From assembly GCF_000186345.1 (NCBI RefSeq), contig NC_014962.1:3562450-3626449 (forward strand): a DNA stretch of 64,000 nt. Direction: 5' to 3'. The stretch is from Isosphaera pallida ATCC 43644 (GTDB lineage: Bacteria; Planctomycetota; Planctomycetia; Isosphaerales; Isosphaeraceae). The notes beneath the pieces are model-generated. The model saw nothing but the letters and a program-made list of their open reading frames with translations, made no database searches and was not told the origin of the DNA. The position numbers were made by a program, and so were the translations under genes. Below are positions 26,937 to 37,162 of this stretch, piece after piece; the first letter of the stretch is position 1, and each line of letters opens with the position of its first letter.

Positions 26937-29900
26937 TCAGGTGGACTTGGCTCGTGCCGCCAGGGGACCCACCAGCAGCGCCGGAGGGATGAGGAGCAGA
27001 ACCACGGGGTTGAGCCAAAGGGTCCAACTCCACCAAATGAGGGTGGCTAGCCAACTGGCGAGACGCAGCGTTCGGGTGTCGCGATCGGCCAGCCACCAGG
27101 ACTCCCAGGAACGTCGATAACCTTCCAAGCGTGCGGCCAACCCCGCGTTGGGGGAGGTTGGGGAGGAAGGGGCGTGGCTGGCGGCGTGGGCCGCTTCCAA
27201 ACCGGATCCGCGCCGAGAAGGGGACGGGGTCGTGGTCCCCGCGCTCGCCAGAGCTAGGCCGACCAACACGGCGATTGCACCCACCACCGCCACCGGGGCG
27301 GCCAGGCGTTCTTGGAGGTTATCGCGAAGATCCTCTCCAGTGGTGGAAGTCGCCCGCGTTTCCAATCGTTGATCGTCCCGAATCCAGTAGGCTTCGAGAT
27401 CGAGATGCGTCGGCGCGGCGGTGATCGCGTCGAAGGCCGGCGGCTCGTTGGCTTGCTCCGTGGTGGCGGCATGGTCAATGGCCCAAACTCCTCGTCCGCC
27501 TCGTGGGGGTTCGATGGCGTGAAGCCGGGCGACGGGGCGGCGGGGGTCGGGGGAGGATGCGGGCGCAAGATCAGGTTGCGGCGTCTTGGGGGAGGAGTTC
27601 GCGGTCGTCGGGGGGGGGGCGGGGAGGGTTGGAGTCTCAGACGCGCCGAAGCTCTCAATCCGCCATTGGTCCAGGCGTTGGGTCAGGCGTTGGGTGAGGA
27701 TCCGCAGAGGGAGCGGCGTGTCTGGCGTGTTCCAGACGCGAAGCGCGGTGACGAGGTCGCGGCGATGATCCTGAAAGTCGCAGTCCCAGGAGGAGCGATG
27801 CTCCCAGGTGGGGCTGGCCGCGGCCGAGGCGATCAGGCGTTCGAGGCGATCCGCTTGAAACTCGGGGAAGGCGCGGAGCGTCACCCGCGCGTGGCGAGTT
27901 CCCAGAGTGGGAACCAGGGCAGGCGGTTCGGCGTCGAGCCAGACCATCCAGGGCAAGGGCCGGTCGCCGCGGCTCAGTTGCGGCAGCCGTAGGCCCCAGA
28001 CCGCAGCGGGAGCCGTAGGAGCGTTGGTGTCGGTCGGGGGAACGAGCAGCTGGGGATCAAGCCGAGAGGCGGGGGCGGTCCAGACGAGTTCCCAAACTTC
28101 GCGTCGTCGGCCCGCCGCGGGCAGTCGCCAGCGTTGCGAGGGGCGAGTTTGAATCACGGCCGAATGGCCGTCGCGGGTGACCGCCAGCAAACGCGCGCGC
28201 GCCGGTGGCGTGATCCAGATAGGGTCGGCAGCGCGGGGTCCGGTCGCCGGGGCGGGCCAAATTCGAGTCACGCCCACTACGCTGGGCAAACCAAATTCGG
28301 TCAGCGGATCAAGCCGGGGATCAGCGACCCGAGCGAGCAAACGCTGAATCGTGTGACCATCGGGCTCGGTTAGGGAATCCAACCCTCGCAGCACGAGGCG
28401 GGCCTCAGGCGAAGAAGTTCGCAACTGTCGATCGACTCGACCCGCCGGGGCCACCGCGAACTGGGACACCGTGGTCCGTCGCGTCGTCGTCTCGGTCCAA
28501 TCCCGCTGATCAACTACGATCACCCCCCCTCCTGTCGCGTCGGCCCAACTCAGGTCGGTTTCCCGTTGGATCGCCTCGCCCGTGATCCAGCCATCCACCC
28601 CGTCCGACCCGCTGCCCGAAGCGCTCCAACCAACCGCGTCAATCCGCAAGGTCGGCAGGGGGCGTTCAAATCGGAATCGGGTGGCATCCAAAGAAGCAAG
28701 AATCTTAATGTGCGTATTCCATTCCGCCCAAACTGGTTCCGACGGGATCAACCACCAAGCGGGTCGGTTGGCGATGCCCCAGGCGCGGGCTTCTTCCGGC
28801 TTCAGGGCCACCAGGTTGAATGCGCCCGCGACGCTGGGCGTGATTCGTGGAGATCCAGCGGCTTCTGAAGGGGCGTCGAGACTCACGACGATTCCGTTCA
28901 GCGCACGTCCAGGCGCGCTGACCCGCATCTGGACCAGCACGCCATCGGCGTTCAGACCCGAGACAGCGGCTTGTTCGGTGACGGCGCGGACCTTGGGCGG
29001 CGGCGACTTGAGCACCAGTTCCGGCGGGGGCGCGTCGGCCTTGATGGTGAGCCGCAAGGGCGATCGTCCGGTGGGGAGGGGGGAGGTGGTGGGAGCGTTC
29101 TGGGCGGTCTCGTTGGAGGCTGTTGCGTCGCCGTGTGAGGCCGGTTCCAGGATCAGGTCTCGGGCGGAGGCAAGTTCGATCGTGCCGGTGGCGCTGAGGG
29201 ATTCTCGACCGGCGGTACGCGGCCAGGGGGCGACGATCCGAAGAGGTTGAGCGAGGGTGGGAGGGATCGGCAGCCACCCCTCGACCACCACCGAGGCGGA
29301 CTCGCCCGAGACTGGGTTGGGGCTGGGCGGGATGTCGTCGCTTCGCCCCGCGGAGCGGGGATCGGATGGGGAGCGGGTCACTAGAGTCAGACGATCGGGA
29401 CGGGAACGCCTCCAGGAAACCAGACGACCACCGGACACGCTGACGATCCGGCTCTCCGGCGGCAGAGCCAGACCCGGTTCAATCAGGGTCGGGCGTCCCA
29501 GAAGGTCCGGCTCCAACAGCATTCGGAACCGCAAACGACCGGGCTCTGCCTCCAATCGAACTGTGGCCTCGCCTAGGGTGACCGGTTCTGGAGGAGCCAC
29601 GCGAACCTCGATTCCGGTCAATTCCGACCAGGAATCGAACCGCGCTGCGCCGGCCAGGGTCATTCCGTCCTGGGGCAGTTCTTGCCAACGGCGATTGAAC
29701 TCAGCGTCGCTCATCCCGCGCTCGGGATCCTGTCCCGGCGGAGGGGATTGGAAGCGGCGTCGGAAATCGTCCTCCCAGCCGGGAGGGCGTCGCAATGCCA
29801 CCGCACCGCTGACCGAGCCAAGTCCCTCCAAGTCGAGGGCGGGAAACCGTCGCGTCGGGGACGCGCTGGGTTTGACGTCGGTGTTGGCGTTGGGGTCGGG

Positions 29901-32900
29901 CGCGGAGGAGGCAGGAGCCAGCGCCGCCGAACGTCTCCAAATCAGCTCCACCACCTGACCGGGCTTTGGAGGGGGCTGAAACTCCAGGCGGGTACGGCGC
30001 GGGCCGTCGGACTGGAATAACACCCGCCCCGGTCCTCGGGCCTGTCGCAGGCTCAGGTCGGGGGGAACGGTCAGAGTCAGACTGGCGTAGGGAGAGGCCG
30101 AAGCCAGATCGGTTCCGGCGGGAGCTGTTCCATCGTTGGGAGGGGGCAGGTTGCGAGGGGTCAGGCGCATTCGCACCAGGTCGCCGCCTGGCTCGGCGTC
30201 CCAGAGCGCAAGGATGTCCCAGGAAGCATTCAAGCGGTTGGCCTCTGGCGCGGCGGTGGCGGGGTTGGTCAGGTTGACGTTGGGAGGCGACAAATCTCCG
30301 GTCGTCTTGGAATCGAGCCAACGCCACTGCAACACGGTTTGCGCTCCCAGTGGAACGCCGACCGGCGGGGGGAGGTGCTCGCCCCCCGCCAGGAGCGTGG
30401 GAGAGGGCGTGAAAGGCGTGGGCGGTGCGGGAACCAGGGCCAATCCGAGTCCTTCGGCGACGACGCCCCGCGCCAGGGCTGCGGGAGTGATCGCCAGCCG
30501 TTGACTCGGATCAACCACCAGGCGCTCCAGAATAAGTTCAACCGTCTCGAAACGATCCGACTGCGGTGGGAGACTCTCCGGGGGAAGGGGATCGGAGCCA
30601 ACCGCGGGGTCGGGCGTGATCCAGACCCGCCCCTCCTGCCCGCCGGAACGGATTTCGATGGGAACAGGTTCGCCGTTCAAACGAGCACGCGGCTCCAGAG
30701 CGCCTTGGAGTGGGAACGACCAGGATTGAACCCGTCCCCGTTCGACCTGAAGGGTCCAAATCGTGCGGACGCGAACAAGCGGCGTGGGTCGAGGCGCGTC
30801 GGAGTCAAGGTTAGGATCAGGCGAGTCCAGATAATGATGAATCGCTACGGCAGCCACCGGGGCGGGTAACCAGTGGTTGATCCAGGCACGAGTTTGGGCC
30901 ACCCAGGAAGAATCGCGCTCGTCGTCCCCCCGAGCCACCCGGACAAAAGCCCTTGGGGGGCCGCTTTGAGGGGAGGAAGCAGAGGCCGCCTCGGGAGGGT
31001 CGAGGGCGGAACCGCGGAGCGGACCAATTCCGGCTCCCCCGCCGACGGCGAGGGTGGCGGCCAGCAGCCACGCGGTTCCACCGCGCCCGGGCGGCGTTAG
31101 GGTGCGCGCCATCGACGAACCGCCGCGGCGAGGGTGTCGCCAAGCTCGGGCGATCCCGGCGATTCTTCGCCCTAGGCCGCGACCCACCACCAGAGCCAGC
31201 AGAACCGAACCGCCCAGAAACAGGCCCGGCACCAGTCCGTCAACCAAGTCGGGGCGAATCGCCGCGCTGCCCAAGATCAAGACCGACATCCCCACCAACG
31301 CCGCCCAGAGGATCGGCCAGCCTCGTCGAATCATCAAAGAAAGCGTCGCTGCCACGAGGGTGGCAATTCCCAGCGTCAGGGGCAACGCCACTCGGTTGTC
31401 GTGATAGGTCAGTCGCACGCGGGCCGGCCAGGCGGACGCGGTGAAGCGGTCGCAATGAGTCGAGCCCTCCTCCTCGACCCCAAACCCATGTTGGGGACTC
31501 CCTTGACTCGAAGGGTCCGCCGCGAATCGTTTCCAGGCGGTGACGCTTGCGATTCGTCGGGCCGAGTCCCATCCCCAGACCCGAGCCTCCCGGATCGCCT
31601 CGGCCAGATTGACCGGATCAAACCGGCTTCGAAGGAATTCCATCGCGTCGAACGAGGATGCGGCCTCCCAACCCAAACCGATCGTTTGACGGAGCCACCA
31701 CCTGCTTGAGCTCTTCGCGTGGTGACCCGAATCGCTCAAAACGCCGCTGTCACCGGGCGGGGACGACCTCGACCCATCGGCGCGGGGACGCTCGGTCAAC
31801 CAAAGGGCGTCGCCAACCTCCAGGGCCACAAGGTGGAGGCTTTCGAAGATGTCGTTGGGATGTTCTCCTAGGGTGACGAGGGTTTCCGGTGCCAAAGCCA
31901 GGCGGTCGAACGCAGCGCGATCGATGAGGACGGGGCGGTCGGGGCGGTCCAGGCGCTCTAAAAGGTCACCCAGGCCAATCGTGGGTCTAGGACCGTCGGG
32001 CCGAGGATTCTCCAGAATGAGGAGCTTACGGTCCTCGACCGACCAGCGGGGCTGTTGAATGGTGATGGTCGGTTCTCCACCAAGCCTGCCTCGCGGCTCG
32101 GCGGAAACTACGGGCGGCGGTGAGCGGTCGAGGCGATCGAGCTTGACGCCGCGTCCCTCCCAGGCGCTGAGACGCCATGAGCTAGGACGGACCACCTCCC
32201 AGGTCCATTCCAGACAAGTCCACGAGACCAAGGGACGGACCAGTTCCACCCGGGGGGAACTGGTGGTCTCAGCCCAATCGAAGGGCCACGCCGGGCGTGT
32301 GGGCGACCAATCAACGCTGGGGCGTTCATAAGCGATGGTGAGCAGGCGACGCGGGGTGCGCTGGGGTTGAGGAGTCCAATCAAAGCGCCAGCGGTTGAAG
32401 TCCGCGGGATCATCGCCCGAGGCGTGGTCCAAACCCGACGGCGTCAGGGGCTGTCCTTCCAGTTCCGCCCCCAACAGACGGGCATCTTTGGGAAGGCCAA
32501 TCTCCAGACCGACGGTTCGGGTCGTTGAATCGTTGGGGAGGGCGGGTTCGACCAACATCAGGGTCAAGTCGTGGCGAACCGGTCCCCGCGCCATTTTGGA
32601 GACGGTCACTCGAGCCTGTTGGATGAGGCCGGTTGCCGTGACCGGTTGATTCCGATGGGTCGTGACGTGGCCGCGCGTCGCCGAGACATCCACCAGGAAC
32701 GCGCGCGCCGCGGCGTAGGACGTGGGAGGGGCGATGGTTGAAGTGGATGGATCAAGTTCGGCGAACCAGGCGTCGCCCAGACTGGGAGCCACTTCGATCC
32801 AATCGGGTTGGGGTTGCCAGTCCAAATCGAGATCGTCGCTCAAGGCCACCGCCAACCGATCCAGACCAGCGCGGCGTTGGAGGAAGCAAACCGAAGGCGG

Positions 32901-35600
32901 CGCGCCGTCGCCCGACCAAGGGAGGCTTAGATTGAGCGTCAAGCGGGCGGGACGTCGTCCCTCGGGCAGATCGACCACCGCCACCAAGGCCGTTGCTTGG
33001 GAAGAGGCTGCGGTTTGGGCGCGGGGATCGATATCGGTTGAGATGAACGGTCTCCAAAGCTGGATCGCGCCGCTGATCCGAGGCCAAGCGACCACGATCT
33101 CCCGGAGGTTCCAGAGGCGCACGCGGGGAATGAGGGGGGCCGCGAAACTCATGCCGGAAGGATCGGCTTCGTCGAGCGGTTCGACCGTCCAGCTGGGCGC
33201 GAAGCTTGGGTCGTGGGGATCGCACCCGCTCATGAGCAGGGTGACGCGAGCCGCGCCCTGAGTGAGCGCCCGAACCGTTAGGTGAACTTGGTCGGCCTCG
33301 AAGCGGTAGAGGTGCAGGGCGTGGGTTTGAGGGGTGTCGAGGGTGTCGTCGATCCACGCGGCGGGTCGCGGAGGGGGGGGATGATCGCCCTGGGGAGTCA
33401 GTCGCTCGTCCAGCCAGGTCCAAGCCAGGTCGCTTTTCAGGCCTTGAGCCAGCCCCACCGGATTGGGCGGGGTTCGCCAAGCCAGTTGCTCTGAGGCGTC
33501 GGGGTGGGCGACGGTCGAAAGATCGGGTCGGACGTGAATTCCATCTCGGCTCCAAACCACCCACTGGTCTAACGCGACGATCGCCTGGCGGGGACGCAGA
33601 CGCGGCAGTTCGAATCGTCGGCGGGTGGTCCCGCCAACCACCCGCCGGGATTCCTGAGTGGTGGCGGCGGGCGGGAGACCCTGACCGACCCAGCGGGCTT
33701 GGATCTTGAGCGGTTCAGTGGCTCCCAGATCGTTGCGGACCCGTGCAGCGATGACGCGGTCCCCGCCATCGGTTTCCGAGGCGGGTTCGATCCGCCAGGC
33801 GGTAGGGCGTTCCGAGGAACCCGAACGCACTGAAATGACCTTCCAGCCTGGACTCAGACCAACCACCCAGGGCTCGACATGGCGATTGGCGGGATCGATT
33901 GCAAGCGTGGCCACGAAGGTGGGGGCGATGCCCGCGCGATCCACCCAAATTTGACCCTGGATCGTCAACGACGGCTCTGAACACGCTCGCGCGGGTTCCA
34001 ATACCAGGGCTGCCACCGAGCCGGGGCCGTGGGGCTCGAATTCGAGGATCGCTGCCGCTCCGGGGAACGGCAAGGCGGTCGGATCGTTGGCCGTGGGGAC
34101 GCTGGGCAACAGGCGTCCTCGCTCCAGACGGCAGGAAGCCACCACCCGCGAGGCGTCTAAACCTACCGTGATTCGCCCCGAGCGCCAGGTCTGCGAGGTG
34201 GGTCGAATCCAGGGCAACGGCCAAGCTCGACCGGTCTCCACCGCCAACGCCGCTTCGACTTTGAGATACACCGGCTGCCGGGGCGCTTCAGTGAACCGCA
34301 GTTCCAACTGTTTAACGTTGGCGCGCTCTGGGTTCGTCGCAACGTCGGGGGAGGTTCCGGCGGCTGGGTCAATCAGGCTGGTTGCGGTTTCGCGCAGACC
34401 CTCGGCGACCACCTGAAGCACCTCTAAACGCGGATCCAACTCCAGCATCAGACGGTCCGTGGGAGTGGGACCAGGGTTCCAGACCCAATCAGCCACCACG
34501 CGGGCTTGGGAGCCGAGGATCGCTACGCGGATCGGACCTCCCAAGTCACCGCGCAGCCAGGGAGCCGGCGGAGCCGCGTCGGTTCGCCGCAGACGGATCG
34601 TCACCCCGCTTTGAACCCCTTCCACCACCCAGTCGCGGGTCGTGACGTCCGAAGACGAGGCCGCGTTGGATTGGGAACCTTGGGGTTCGACGGCCGCATC
34701 GCCAAGACGAGCCCGCCGAAGCGTGGGACCAATGGTCATCGTTTCAGCAGAGCCGATCGCCGCGTTGGCGTTGGGTTCGCCGAGAGATTTGAGTGAAGCC
34801 TCACCCGCCTCCACGCTGGAGGCCGATGCCGATAGGGACGAGGCCAGGATTGGTTCGATCTCCTGAGGCAACCGCAGAGTCAACCGCTGGGGGCGGATCT
34901 CCAACGCGGCCAACTGAAACTCCACCCGGTCTTCAGCAACGAATGCCGTGGAGGGCGCGATCCAGTGAAGTATGACGACTTGTTGGCCAGATGATCTGAT
35001 GCGTAGGCGATGCCCACCCTGATCGTCCACCACCAACGCGCCCGGCGGTTCTACAGCCAGCACTGGCCAGGACCAACCTGGCAGAGGTAAATCCACTCGG
35101 TCGGGCCAGTCGCCGCCGGGGTGGGCGATGGTGAACCGGCTCCACCCCGTCAGCCGGTTGGTTTGAACCTCGAAGACCCCGAAATGATCGGCCCGGACGA
35201 TACGCGGTGGCTGTCTCCTCATGCGTTCGAGTCTGGCCAGTTCATCGCTCCGCGCTGCGAAGCGGGACGGTTCGGATTCAACCCGCTCATCGGGCCTGTG
35301 GGGATCGTTCGACTCCAAAGGGCCAGGTGACGACCGCTCCGGCGTTGTCGGCGGTGTCGGTGGCGTCGAGGAGGGCGTGGTGTCGGCGGGCGGGGACGGC
35401 GGTTGCGCTTCGGTTGGGGAACCTTGCCCATAACCCTCGGCCAGCCCAACGACCAAAACCAGCAGCAGGATCGAGACGGGGAGTGATCCCGATCGAACCG
35501 AGCGTCGCCGAAACGGCGTCGAACCGAAGACGGCGGGATCGATCTGGGCGTTCAAGTGGCGTGTTGGAGTCAAAGGCGTGCGAATCAACAGAGCAAACAT
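26937..35600 (-). CDS. Giant secreted and membrane-anchored protein, apparent head-to-tail fusion
   Basis: One frame of 2887 codons without a stop. Residues about 38-60 form a signal peptide (LPVSILLLVLVVGLAEGYG), followed by a Pro/Thr/Ser-rich linker to about 115. Residues 120-1400 are strand-rich with no domain I recognise. About 1407-1475 holds two to three membrane segments (LPLTLGIATLVAATLSLM, ILWAALVGMSVLILGSAAI, GLFLGGSVLLALVVG), then an Arg-rich stretch. At M1497 (31110-31112) a second signal-like sequence begins (GGTAWLLAATLAVGGGAG), followed by another strand-rich ectodomain with Pro-rich linkers and C-terminal membrane segments (about 2740-2885). Each half alone looks like a complete exported, C-anchored protein. 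Only GGCGG, no real ribosome site, precedes M1497. Function unknown; probably at the envelope. Confidence 0.75.
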   Translation of the reverse strand: MFALLIRTPLTPTRHLNAQIDPAVFGSTPFRRRSVRSGSLPVSILLLVLVVGLAEGYGQGSPTEAQPPSPPADTTPSSTPPTPPTTPERSSPGPLESNDPHRPDERVESEPSRFAARSDELARLERMRRQPPRIVRADHFGVFEVQTNRLTGWSRFTIAHPGGDWPDRVDLPLPGWSWPVLAVEPPGALVVDDQGGHRLRIRSSGQQVVILHWIAPSTAFVAEDRVEFQLAALEIRPQRLTLRLPQEIEPILASSLSASASSVEAGEASLKSLGEPNANAAIGSAETMTIGPTLRRARLGDAAVEPQGSQSNAASSSDVTTRDWVVEGVQSGVTIRLRRTDAAPPAPWLRGDLGGPIRVAILGSQARVVADWVWNPGPTPTDRLMLELDPRLEVLQVVAEGLRETATSLIDPAAGTSPDVATNPERANVKQLELRFTEAPRQPVYLKVEAALAVETGRAWPLPWIRPTSQTWRSGRITVGLDASRVVASCRLERGRLLPSVPTANDPTALPFPGAAAILEFEPHGPGSVAALVLEPARACSEPSLTIQGQIWVDRAGIAPTFVATLAIDPANRHVEPWVVGLSPGWKVISVRSGSSERPTAWRIEPASETDGGDRVIAARVRNDLGATEPLKIQARWVGQGLPPAATTQESRRVVGGTTRRRFELPRLRPRQAIVALDQWVVWSRDGIHVRPDLSTVAHPDASEQLAWRTPPNPVGLAQGLKSDLAWTWLDERLTPQGDHPPPPRPAAWIDDTLDTPQTHALHLYRFEADQVHLTVRALTQGAARVTLLMSGCDPHDPSFAPSWTVEPLDEADPSGMSFAAPLIPRVRLWNLREIVVAWPRISGAIQLWRPFISTDIDPRAQTAASSQATALVAVVDLPEGRRPARLTLNLSLPWSGDGAPPSVCFLQRRAGLDRLAVALSDDLDLDWQPQPDWIEVAPSLGDAWFAELDPSTSTIAPPTSYAAARAFLVDVSATRGHVTTHRNQPVTATGLIQQARVTVSKMARGPVRHDLTLMLVEPALPNDSTTRTVGLEIGLPKDARLLGAELEGQPLTPSGLDHASGDDPADFNRWRFDWTPQPQRTPRRLLTIAYERPSVDWSPTRPAWPFDWAETTSSPRVELVRPLVSWTCLEWTWEVVRPSSWRLSAWEGRGVKLDRLDRSPPPVVSAEPRGRLGGEPTITIQQPRWSVEDRKLLILENPRPDGPRPTIGLGDLLERLDRPDRPVLIDRAAFDRLALAPETLVTLGEHPNDIFESLHLVALEVGDALWLTERPRADGSRSSPPGDSGVLSDSGHHAKSSSRWWLRQTIGLGWEAASSFDAMEFLRSRFDPVNLAEAIREARVWGWDSARRIASVTAWKRFAADPSSQGSPQHGFGVEEEGSTHCDRFTASAWPARVRLTYHDNRVALPLTLGIATLVAATLSLMIRRGWPILWAALVGMSVLILGSAAIRPDLVDGLVPGLFLGGSVLLALVVGRGLGRRIAGIARAWRHPRRGGSSMARTLTPPGRGGTAWLLAATLAVGGGAGIGPLRGSALDPPEAASASSPQSGPPRAFVRVARGDDERDSSWVAQTRAWINHWLPAPVAAVAIHHYLDSPDPNLDSDAPRPTPLVRVRTIWTLQVERGRVQSWSFPLQGALEPRARLNGEPVPIEIRSGGQEGRVWITPDPAVGSDPLPPESLPPQSDRFETVELILERLVVDPSQRLAITPAALARGVVAEGLGLALVPAPPTPFTPSPTLLAGGEHLPPPVGVPLGAQTVLQWRWLDSKTTGDLSPPNVNLTNPATAAPEANRLNASWDILALWDAEPGGDLVRMRLTPRNLPPPNDGTAPAGTDLASASPYASLTLTVPPDLSLRQARGPGRVLFQSDGPRRTRLEFQPPPKPGQVVELIWRRSAALAPASSAPDPNANTDVKPSASPTRRFPALDLEGLGSVSGAVALRRPPGWEDDFRRRFQSPPPGQDPERGMSDAEFNRRWQELPQDGMTLAGAARFDSWSELTGIEVRVAPPEPVTLGEATVRLEAEPGRLRFRMLLEPDLLGRPTLIEPGLALPPESRIVSVSGGRLVSWRRSRPDRLTLVTRSPSDPRSAGRSDDIPPSPNPVSGESASVVVEGWLPIPPTLAQPLRIVAPWPRTAGRESLSATGTIELASARDLILEPASHGDATASNETAQNAPTTSPLPTGRSPLRLTIKADAPPPELVLKSPPPKVRAVTEQAAVSGLNADGVLVQMRVSAPGRALNGIVVSLDAPSEAAGSPRITPSVAGAFNLVALKPEEARAWGIANRPAWWLIPSEPVWAEWNTHIKILASLDATRFRFERPLPTLRIDAVGWSASGSGSDGVDGWITGEAIQRETDLSWADATGGGVIVVDQRDWTETTTRRTTVSQFAVAPAGRVDRQLRTSSPEARLVLRGLDSLTEPDGHTIQRLLARVADPRLDPLTEFGLPSVVGVTRIWPAPATGPRAADPIWITPPARARLLAVTRDGHSAVIQTRPSQRWRLPAAGRRREVWELVWTAPASRLDPQLLVPPTDTNAPTAPAAVWGLRLPQLSRGDRPLPWMVWLDAEPPALVPTLGTRHARVTLRAFPEFQADRLERLIASAAASPTWEHRSSWDCDFQDHRRDLVTALRVWNTPDTPLPLRILTQRLTQRLDQWRIESFGASETPTLPAPPPTTANSSPKTPQPDLAPASSPDPRRPVARLHAIEPPRGGRGVWAIDHAATTEQANEPPAFDAITAAPTHLDLEAYWIRDDQRLETRATSTTGEDLRDNLQERLAAPVAVVGAIAVLVGLALASAGTTTPSPSRRGSGLEAAHAASHAPSSPTSPNAGLAARLEGYRRSWESWWLADRDTRTLRLASWLATLIWWSWTLWLNPVVLLLIPPALLVGPLAARAKST

Positions 35601-35680
35601 CGTCGCAGGCGTTTGTCCAAAGAGGAGAAGGACGGAGAGGCGGGCTTAAGACCACAACGGGATTCCAAACCGATCCGGCC

Positions 35681-37162
35681 CTAGTCAGCCTCCCCCTCCC
35701 TCCGCGCGGAGTCAGGTCCAGCGTCAGCCGAATACAACGCGATCGAACGAATAATGTCATCGAGATCATTGGGGACGACCACGGGGCGATTGGCGAATCC
35801 CGCCCGCAGTACGCCGCGCTTGCCCAACACATGATCGAACAGGTCGCGGTCGCCGGAGTGATAGGCGACGGTGGCGTTGGGGTCTTTGAGTTGGTGGCCG
35901 GTCAGCACGCACACCACTTGGTCGGACGGGGCGATGATCCCTTCGCGACGCAGCCTTCGAGCTCCGGCGACGCTGGCCGCGCTGGCCGGTTCGCAGCCCA
36001 GACCGCCCGACCCCACCTGCGCTTTGGCGTCTAAAATCTCCTGATCGCTGACCTGAGTGACCACCCCGTCGCAGACGCTCAGCGCCCGCAGGCATTTCTT
36101 CAAGTTGACCGGTCGATTGATCTCGATGGCCGACGCGATGGTGTCGGCCTTGACCCCCTCGGCGTCCAGACTCCGATAATAGCCGTCGGCGAGCCTGAGG
36201 TCCGGCTCACCGTCGCACCAACGCATCCCCGCCTGGTTGTAGAGGTGATCAAGCGTCGAAGCCCCAGCCGCGTTGACCACCGCTAACCGGGGCAGCCTCT
36301 TCAACAACCCCAGCTCCTTGAGCTCGGCGAACGCCTTGCCGAACGCCGAGGAGTTGCCCAAGTTGCCGCCGGGCACCACGATCCAGTCGGGAGGCTCCCA
36401 GTTTGAAGCCTCCAAAACCCGATACATGATCGTTTTCTGACCTTCGAGCCGAAATGGATTCACCGAGTTCATGAGGTAGATGCCCAAGCGGTCGGCCACC
36501 TGGCGGACTCGGGCCATTGCGTCGTCGAAGTCGCCCACGATCTGGATGGTCAACGCGCCGTGATCGAGTGCCTGGGCAAGTTTGCCGTAGGCGATTTTGC
36601 CCGAGCCGATGAAGATGATCGCCTTGAAGCCGTGAGGCGTGGCCGAACAGTAGACCGCTAGGGCCGCGGAGGTATTGCCGGTGCTCGCGCAGGCGACCCG
36701 CCGGGCTCCGACCATCCGGGCGTGGGTGAAAGCGGCGGTCATGCCGTTGTCCTTGAAGCTGCCCGAGGGGTTCATTCCCTCGTATTGCAGCTTGAGGCGA
36801 CCTGCCTCGACCCCGACGTAGGAGGCCACCGCGTCGGCGGTTTGGAGCAAGGTTTGCCCCTCGCCGATGGTCACGATCGCCGACTCGGGCGCAAACGGCA
36901 ACAAACGGCGGAACCGCCAGACCCCCGAGAAGTTGAGCGGGTTGCCTCGATCCGACCAGGCCGCTTCAAACTCGTGCAGGCTGGTGGGTACCGGCAGACG
37001 GTCCCAGTCGTAGGTCACATCCAGCAAGTCGCCGCAGACTGGACAGGAAAACCGCGGTTCTTCAATCCCGAAGGTCGCGCCGCACGACAAGTTGAGGCAG
37101 CGCTGAAACGCGCCGTCCAGCCGATGGGCCGGATCGACCGAAGGGACCAAAACCGTGGTCAT
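35681..37162 (-). CDS. thrC: Threonine synthase
   Basis: A 493-residue PLP enzyme that turns O-phosphohomoserine into threonine in the cytoplasm. The N-terminus has a zinc-ribbon-like set of cysteines (C22, C27, C40, C43) seen in one threonine synthase class. The PLP Lys is K137 in [13 protein letters not shown]. Later motifs are [44 protein letters not shown] and the Gly-rich phosphate cradle. C-terminal [18 protein letters not shown] and [12 protein letters not shown] complete the fold. Starts at ATG 37160-37162, with AAAGGACGGG ahead. A GTTAGAATG element lies 90 bases upstream. No homoserine genes adjoin. Confidence 0.95.

Follow-up and report, generated by a model that had tools for sequence, protein, structure and literature searches.

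A gene of 2,887 codons in the planctomycete Isosphaera pallida ATCC 43644 raises the question of how many proteins are made from it. An earlier note on this DNA had offered three readings: a fusion gene for one giant protein that crosses the membrane more than once, a product that is cleaved, or two genes that share a frame. Here, the question is taken up through the layout of the frame, its relatives across the phylum, the segment that joins its two halves, and models of their structure.

Layout of the frame

The gene, called gene2 here, lies in a 64,000-nucleotide stretch of the chromosome (the window, to which positions refer). It is one unbroken open frame on the minus strand at 26937 to 35600, with an ATG start at 35600, 2,887 codons, and a stop at 26937 to 26939; an unbroken frame of 2,887 codons cannot be due to chance, and the gene has orthologs. 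Hydropathy analysis placed hydrophobic segments at residues 35 to 53, 1406 to 1424, 1430 to 1448, 1455 to 1473, 1510 to 1528, 2766 to 2784, and 2853 to 2884. This confirmed the layout proposed earlier without a strand, a single long frame with two anchored, exported halves. The first half, unit A, begins with a signal region (residues 1 to 55; 35436 to 35600) whose hydrophobic core is the segment at 35 to 53. It continues with an ectodomain (residues 56 to 1400; 31401 to 35435) that orthologs and a structural model delimit as a predicted string of beta-sandwiches. By hydropathy and positive-inside charges, it closes with three membrane helices and a predicted cytoplasmic C-terminal end (residues 1404 to 1476; 31173 to 31391), and the helices found at 1406 to 1473 agree with the earlier statement that the membrane segments of this half end near residue 1475. 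A signal-peptide-like segment follows at the joint (residues 1497 to 1532; 31005 to 31112), recognized by hydropathy, flank charges, and motif counts. The codon of M1497, at 31112, directly precedes the hydrophobic stretch at 1510 to 1528. The second half, unit B, has an ectodomain (residues 1533 to 2760; 27321 to 31004) identified as a paralog of unit A by profile alignment and a structural model. Its C-terminal membrane segments (residues 2764 to 2884; 26949 to 27311) were assigned from hydropathy and flank charges. Upstream of gene2 on the same strand, across a gap of 80 bp (35601 to 35680), is a gene at 35681 to 37162 that stands outside the gene2 system and that we take, from sequence features, to be threonine synthase-like; the two may be cotranscribed in I. 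pallida.

Homology of the units and a third unit

The halves compared as single sequences gave an E value of only 0.002, and profiles were therefore needed. Profile alignment with hhalign bore out the suspicion that the halves are paralogous, with a score of 136.9 and an E value of 2e-14 over 777 collinear columns. Control scores were 21.5 for a reversed alignment, at most 22.5 for column shuffles, and at most 49.6 for shuffles of 60-column blocks; with other alignments, the score of A against B was 180. On these profiles, the two units are paralogs of distant relationship that align collinearly over about 780 columns.

A one-unit gene, gene1, of about 1,040 to 1,340 codons lies directly upstream of gene2 in most relatives, sometimes overlapping it, and is homologous to both gene2 halves (scores of 224 to 322). 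Outside the Isosphaeraceae, the gene1 profile covers both gene2 units almost end to end, with, for example, 204 and 224 bits. The pair is separated in I. pallida, since gene1 is found there at chromosome positions 752,898 to 756,866 (L086:7899-11867), about 2.8 Mb from gene2. It adjoins an inositol monophosphatase gene, a neighbor that gene1 also has in some relatives.

Distribution of the fused frame

A query of 750 residues from the first half was searched, at E values up to 1, against 45 genomes from the family and matched 27 of them, and the better matches were mostly in frames of about 2,200 to 2,850 codons. Full-length alignment of fetched loci showed that twelve relatives share the I. 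pallida gene2 layout at 20 to 25% identity: a signal peptide, a first ectodomain, three helices, a basic linker, a fourth hydrophobic segment, a second ectodomain, and C-terminal helices. A second genome collection yielded 19 named loci, including those of Singulisphaera acidiphila DSM 18658, Aquisphaera insulae, and Paludisphaera soli. A search of genome contigs with the single I. pallida protein gave no match, an alignment used as the query did, and a tblastn search of plasmids gave none. The joint lies in one open frame in all 32 copies of the final Isosphaeraceae set, in line with the earlier observation that neither a stop nor a frameshift interrupts it. Beyond the family, profiles of half A and half B matched 65 and 67, respectively, of 118 Planctomycetia genomes, mostly in frames of more than about 2,000 codons or in the neighboring one-unit gene. 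A phylum-wide search gave the same picture, with most copies outside the Isosphaeraceae fused across the joint. On these sequence comparisons, the A-B fusion is old and occurs across the phylum, not just in I. pallida.

Several loci depart from the common layout. In one Isosphaeraceae genus (L064:8813-15706 and L033:8085-14996), the unit B match stops near profile position 1005, no C-terminal helices were detected, and unit B may be released. Some genomes of family f3 (L055, L056, and L057) carry a gene2 shortened to about 1,585 to 1,842 codons with a reduced unit B, and C-terminal helices were not seen in the shortened gene2 of L056 and L057. Some genomes of family f2 have an extra, diverged two-unit locus of about 2,150 to 2,230 codons beside the main one (L124 from 3980 onward and L125 from 1742 onward). 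A lone unit-A-like gene with three C-terminal helices occurs at L134:9331-13707, with no unit B seen within about 290 nucleotides downstream; the same genome additionally carries a frame of the A-B type.

The segment at the joint

Net charges of the flanks alternate over the signal peptide and the six further segments in 29 Isosphaeraceae orthologs, matching the positive-inside rule. The topology predicted from them has both ectodomains outside, the third helix ending inside, and the joint segment running from inside to outside. On flank charges alone, module A is predicted to end in the cytoplasm, so that module B would need to be exported anew. Of the six segments, the one at the joint is shortest and has the lowest hydrophobicity, and the length of its hydrophobic run resembles that of the N-terminal signal peptide.

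Candidate cut sites were counted as xxA↓[QED] (arrow, cut) within 16 residues after the segment and compared with shuffles, in 39 nonredundant copies from outside the Isosphaeraceae that, being orthologs, are not independent of one another. The motif followed the joint segment in 30 of the 39, against 10.1 expected from shuffles. For comparison, 213 membrane segments from elsewhere in these proteins had it 16 times against 16.6. At the N-terminal signal peptides encoded by these genes, the counts were 25/39 against 8.8 and 10/11 against 2.5. The internal segment thus resembles true signal peptides and not helices, since it shares the motif excess only with the former. Textbook-like examples from outside the Isosphaeraceae are IALLTILGAASVGYA↓QPPAS, SLTAAAAHA↓EEQ, and ASLAVA↓QQAA. 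Signal peptidase I substrates of Bacteroidetes typically have a Gln after the cut; this serves as a comparison only, since the rule is stated not to be general for related phyla (PMC5837995).

Within the Isosphaeraceae, only strict AxA was enriched at the joint (14/29 against 7.2; P = 0.001). It was not enriched at the N-terminal signal peptides of the same family, the positive control, and for that reason we rejected strict AxA as a sole test. The best candidate cut in I. pallida is GSA↓LD, between residues 1532 and 1533 (window positions 31005 and 31004), which has an Arg at position -4 and is among the less canonical sites. Support for a signal peptidase site, as read from these motifs, is weaker within the Isosphaeraceae than outside. 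Taken with the flank charges, the motif counts indicate that the second signal-like sequence described earlier at M1497 is real and conserved, in that it behaves like a signal peptide.

A natural split

In one genome from another part of the phylum (L127, G191), unit A stops soon after its three helices and, after a gap of about 38 nucleotides, unit B is a gene of its own. That gene starts with an N-terminal signal peptide, MNRVIVRVCVLAACLAVVLRSAVRA↓EES, the counterpart of the internal segment, which suggests that unit B is exported and works on its own in that species. The clean split is known from this single genome, a draft assembly, and may be a secondary fission and not the ancestral state, since most of the G191 relatives that gave matches have the fused form. 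We did not accept a second candidate, L128:6973-15747 (G143), as a clean split. Both of its frames, for unit A and for unit B, are interrupted in the helix region, where the frame for unit A stops, in what looks like a frameshift, either a sequence error or real. Other short unit B frames from the phylum-wide search mostly begin near a contig start and were not accepted as splits.

Cleavage and its alternatives

Two anchored modules in one frame, with a signal peptidase I-type site after the internal segment that is clearest outside the Isosphaeraceae, point to a likely reading of gene2: two tandem paralogous units that would make up a membrane polyprotein, which signal peptidase I would split into two anchored proteins. 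The N-terminal signal peptide would export unit A, and the three helices would hold it in the membrane, with the end of unit A predicted to lie in the cytoplasm. The joint segment, as a signal peptide that has been kept, would then initiate export again, with a cut by signal peptidase I behind it; A and B would result as individual anchored proteins, in a constant 1:1 proportion. Of the three readings in the earlier note, a cleaved product is thus the best supported.

The joint segment could also be kept as a fourth helix, a signal anchor, in a single uncleaved giant chain with six membrane helices and both ectodomains on it. This arrangement would have the same flank-charge topology, it agrees with a frame that is continuous in all family members, and in a few copies, such as L028, the joint segment is hydrophobic but shows no clear site. 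A cleavage-type motif that is conserved at the joint segment and absent from the other helices argues against it, as does the short hydrophobic core of that segment, and we regard the uncleaved chain as unlikely. Far less probable is a second translation start near 31112 that would give two products from one frame. M1497 directly precedes the signal-like segment, and a Met near the joint occurs in some relatives too; yet only 11 of 32 Isosphaeraceae and 11 of 41 other copies have such a linker Met (GTG and TTG starts lie outside this count), so that separate translation of the second half lacks conservation, and the idea of two genes sharing a frame is not supported. As had been remarked earlier, no Shine-Dalgarno-like sequence was seen ahead of M1497, although initiation without one is possible. 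For a recent accidental fusion specific to I. pallida, or an assembly artifact, nothing was found in favor. We exclude both for practical purposes because the identical fused frame recurs across the family and the phylum. What stands of the fusion gene proposed earlier is a two-unit origin, seen in the deeper comparison; a recent, genome-specific event does not, since relatives have one conserved fused gene.

Fold of the units

AlphaFold models of the S. acidiphila ortholog, built from 17 sequences for unit A and 20 for unit B, reached pLDDT values of 75.9 and 77.7 and pTM values of 0.38 and 0.42; with pTM this low, the relative placement of domains is unreliable. In both models, beta-sandwiches follow one another in a string, and a hairpin and membrane helices come after them. 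A domain of both units resembles the N-terminal beta-sandwich domain of M1 aminopeptidases (Z of about 13 and root mean square deviation [rmsd] of about 3 Å over about 140 to 160 residues). The HEXXH motif is absent from the I. pallida gene2 protein and from all but one row of the unit alignments, so the gene2 product is not an M1 protease; the GxMEN catalytic motif is also absent from the I. pallida protein. Both unit models further matched OST1/ribophorin I in VIA-align (Z of about 13 over about 295 to 316 residues), at a high rmsd of about 7 Å for A and 18 Å for B. The likeness lies in a membrane-anchored pair of M1-N-like beta-sandwiches. OST1, in contrast, is a subunit of the oligosaccharyltransferase of the eukaryotic endoplasmic reticulum, and the gene2 units are longer, with several membrane helices each. 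Profile searches of the PDB detected no sequence similarity to OST1.

Searches of PDB sequences, run with the protein and with profiles of the units, gave no match for the units and noise for gene1, and Pfam, NCBIfam, and PHROGs returned nothing beyond sub-threshold noise for the gene2 protein. An LptF/LptG permease candidate (12.6 bits against a Pfam gathering score of 27.9) was rejected, as were matches to integrin alpha, which had low TM-scores and a generic multi-sandwich arrangement. The models suggest that the units probably serve as an envelope scaffold, and catalysis is possible too; A and B would probably act in this role together with the gene1 unit.

Discussion

The closest mechanistic precedent is FbcH of Bradyrhizobium, the cytochrome b/c1 precursor, in which one bacterial gene encodes a membrane protein and a second exported protein with an internal signal sequence, cut into two subunits. 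Gene2 differs from it in encoding other proteins, in that its parts are paralogs, in its total length of about 2,200 to 2,900 amino acids, and in its phylum-wide occurrence, with cleavage deduced from sequence. To our knowledge, polyproteins for membrane proteins are rare in cellular bacteria. At even odds, in our estimate, the family is an ancient polyprotein over much of the phylum: three homologous giant membrane-anchored beta-sandwich proteins, gene1 and an A-B precursor that carries its own signal and is cut by signal peptidase I. This would fix the proportions of the subunits in an envelope complex that is characteristic of Planctomycetota and so far undescribed.

I. pallida has 16 "giant genes" above 5 kb, and planctomycetes are rich in such genes, according to an extract of the paper on them (PMC5352709). 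Gene2 falls in the same size class; that category is defined by length, and the extract describes neither the gene2 family nor its joint. The gene2 polyprotein would combine large size with great age and a wide distribution in a phylum noted for its unusual envelope. Genes listed as hypothetical giants would thereby become a defined family of three units, with a maturation step that can be tested, and the automatic annotation of such genes as encoding a single protein may be wrong.
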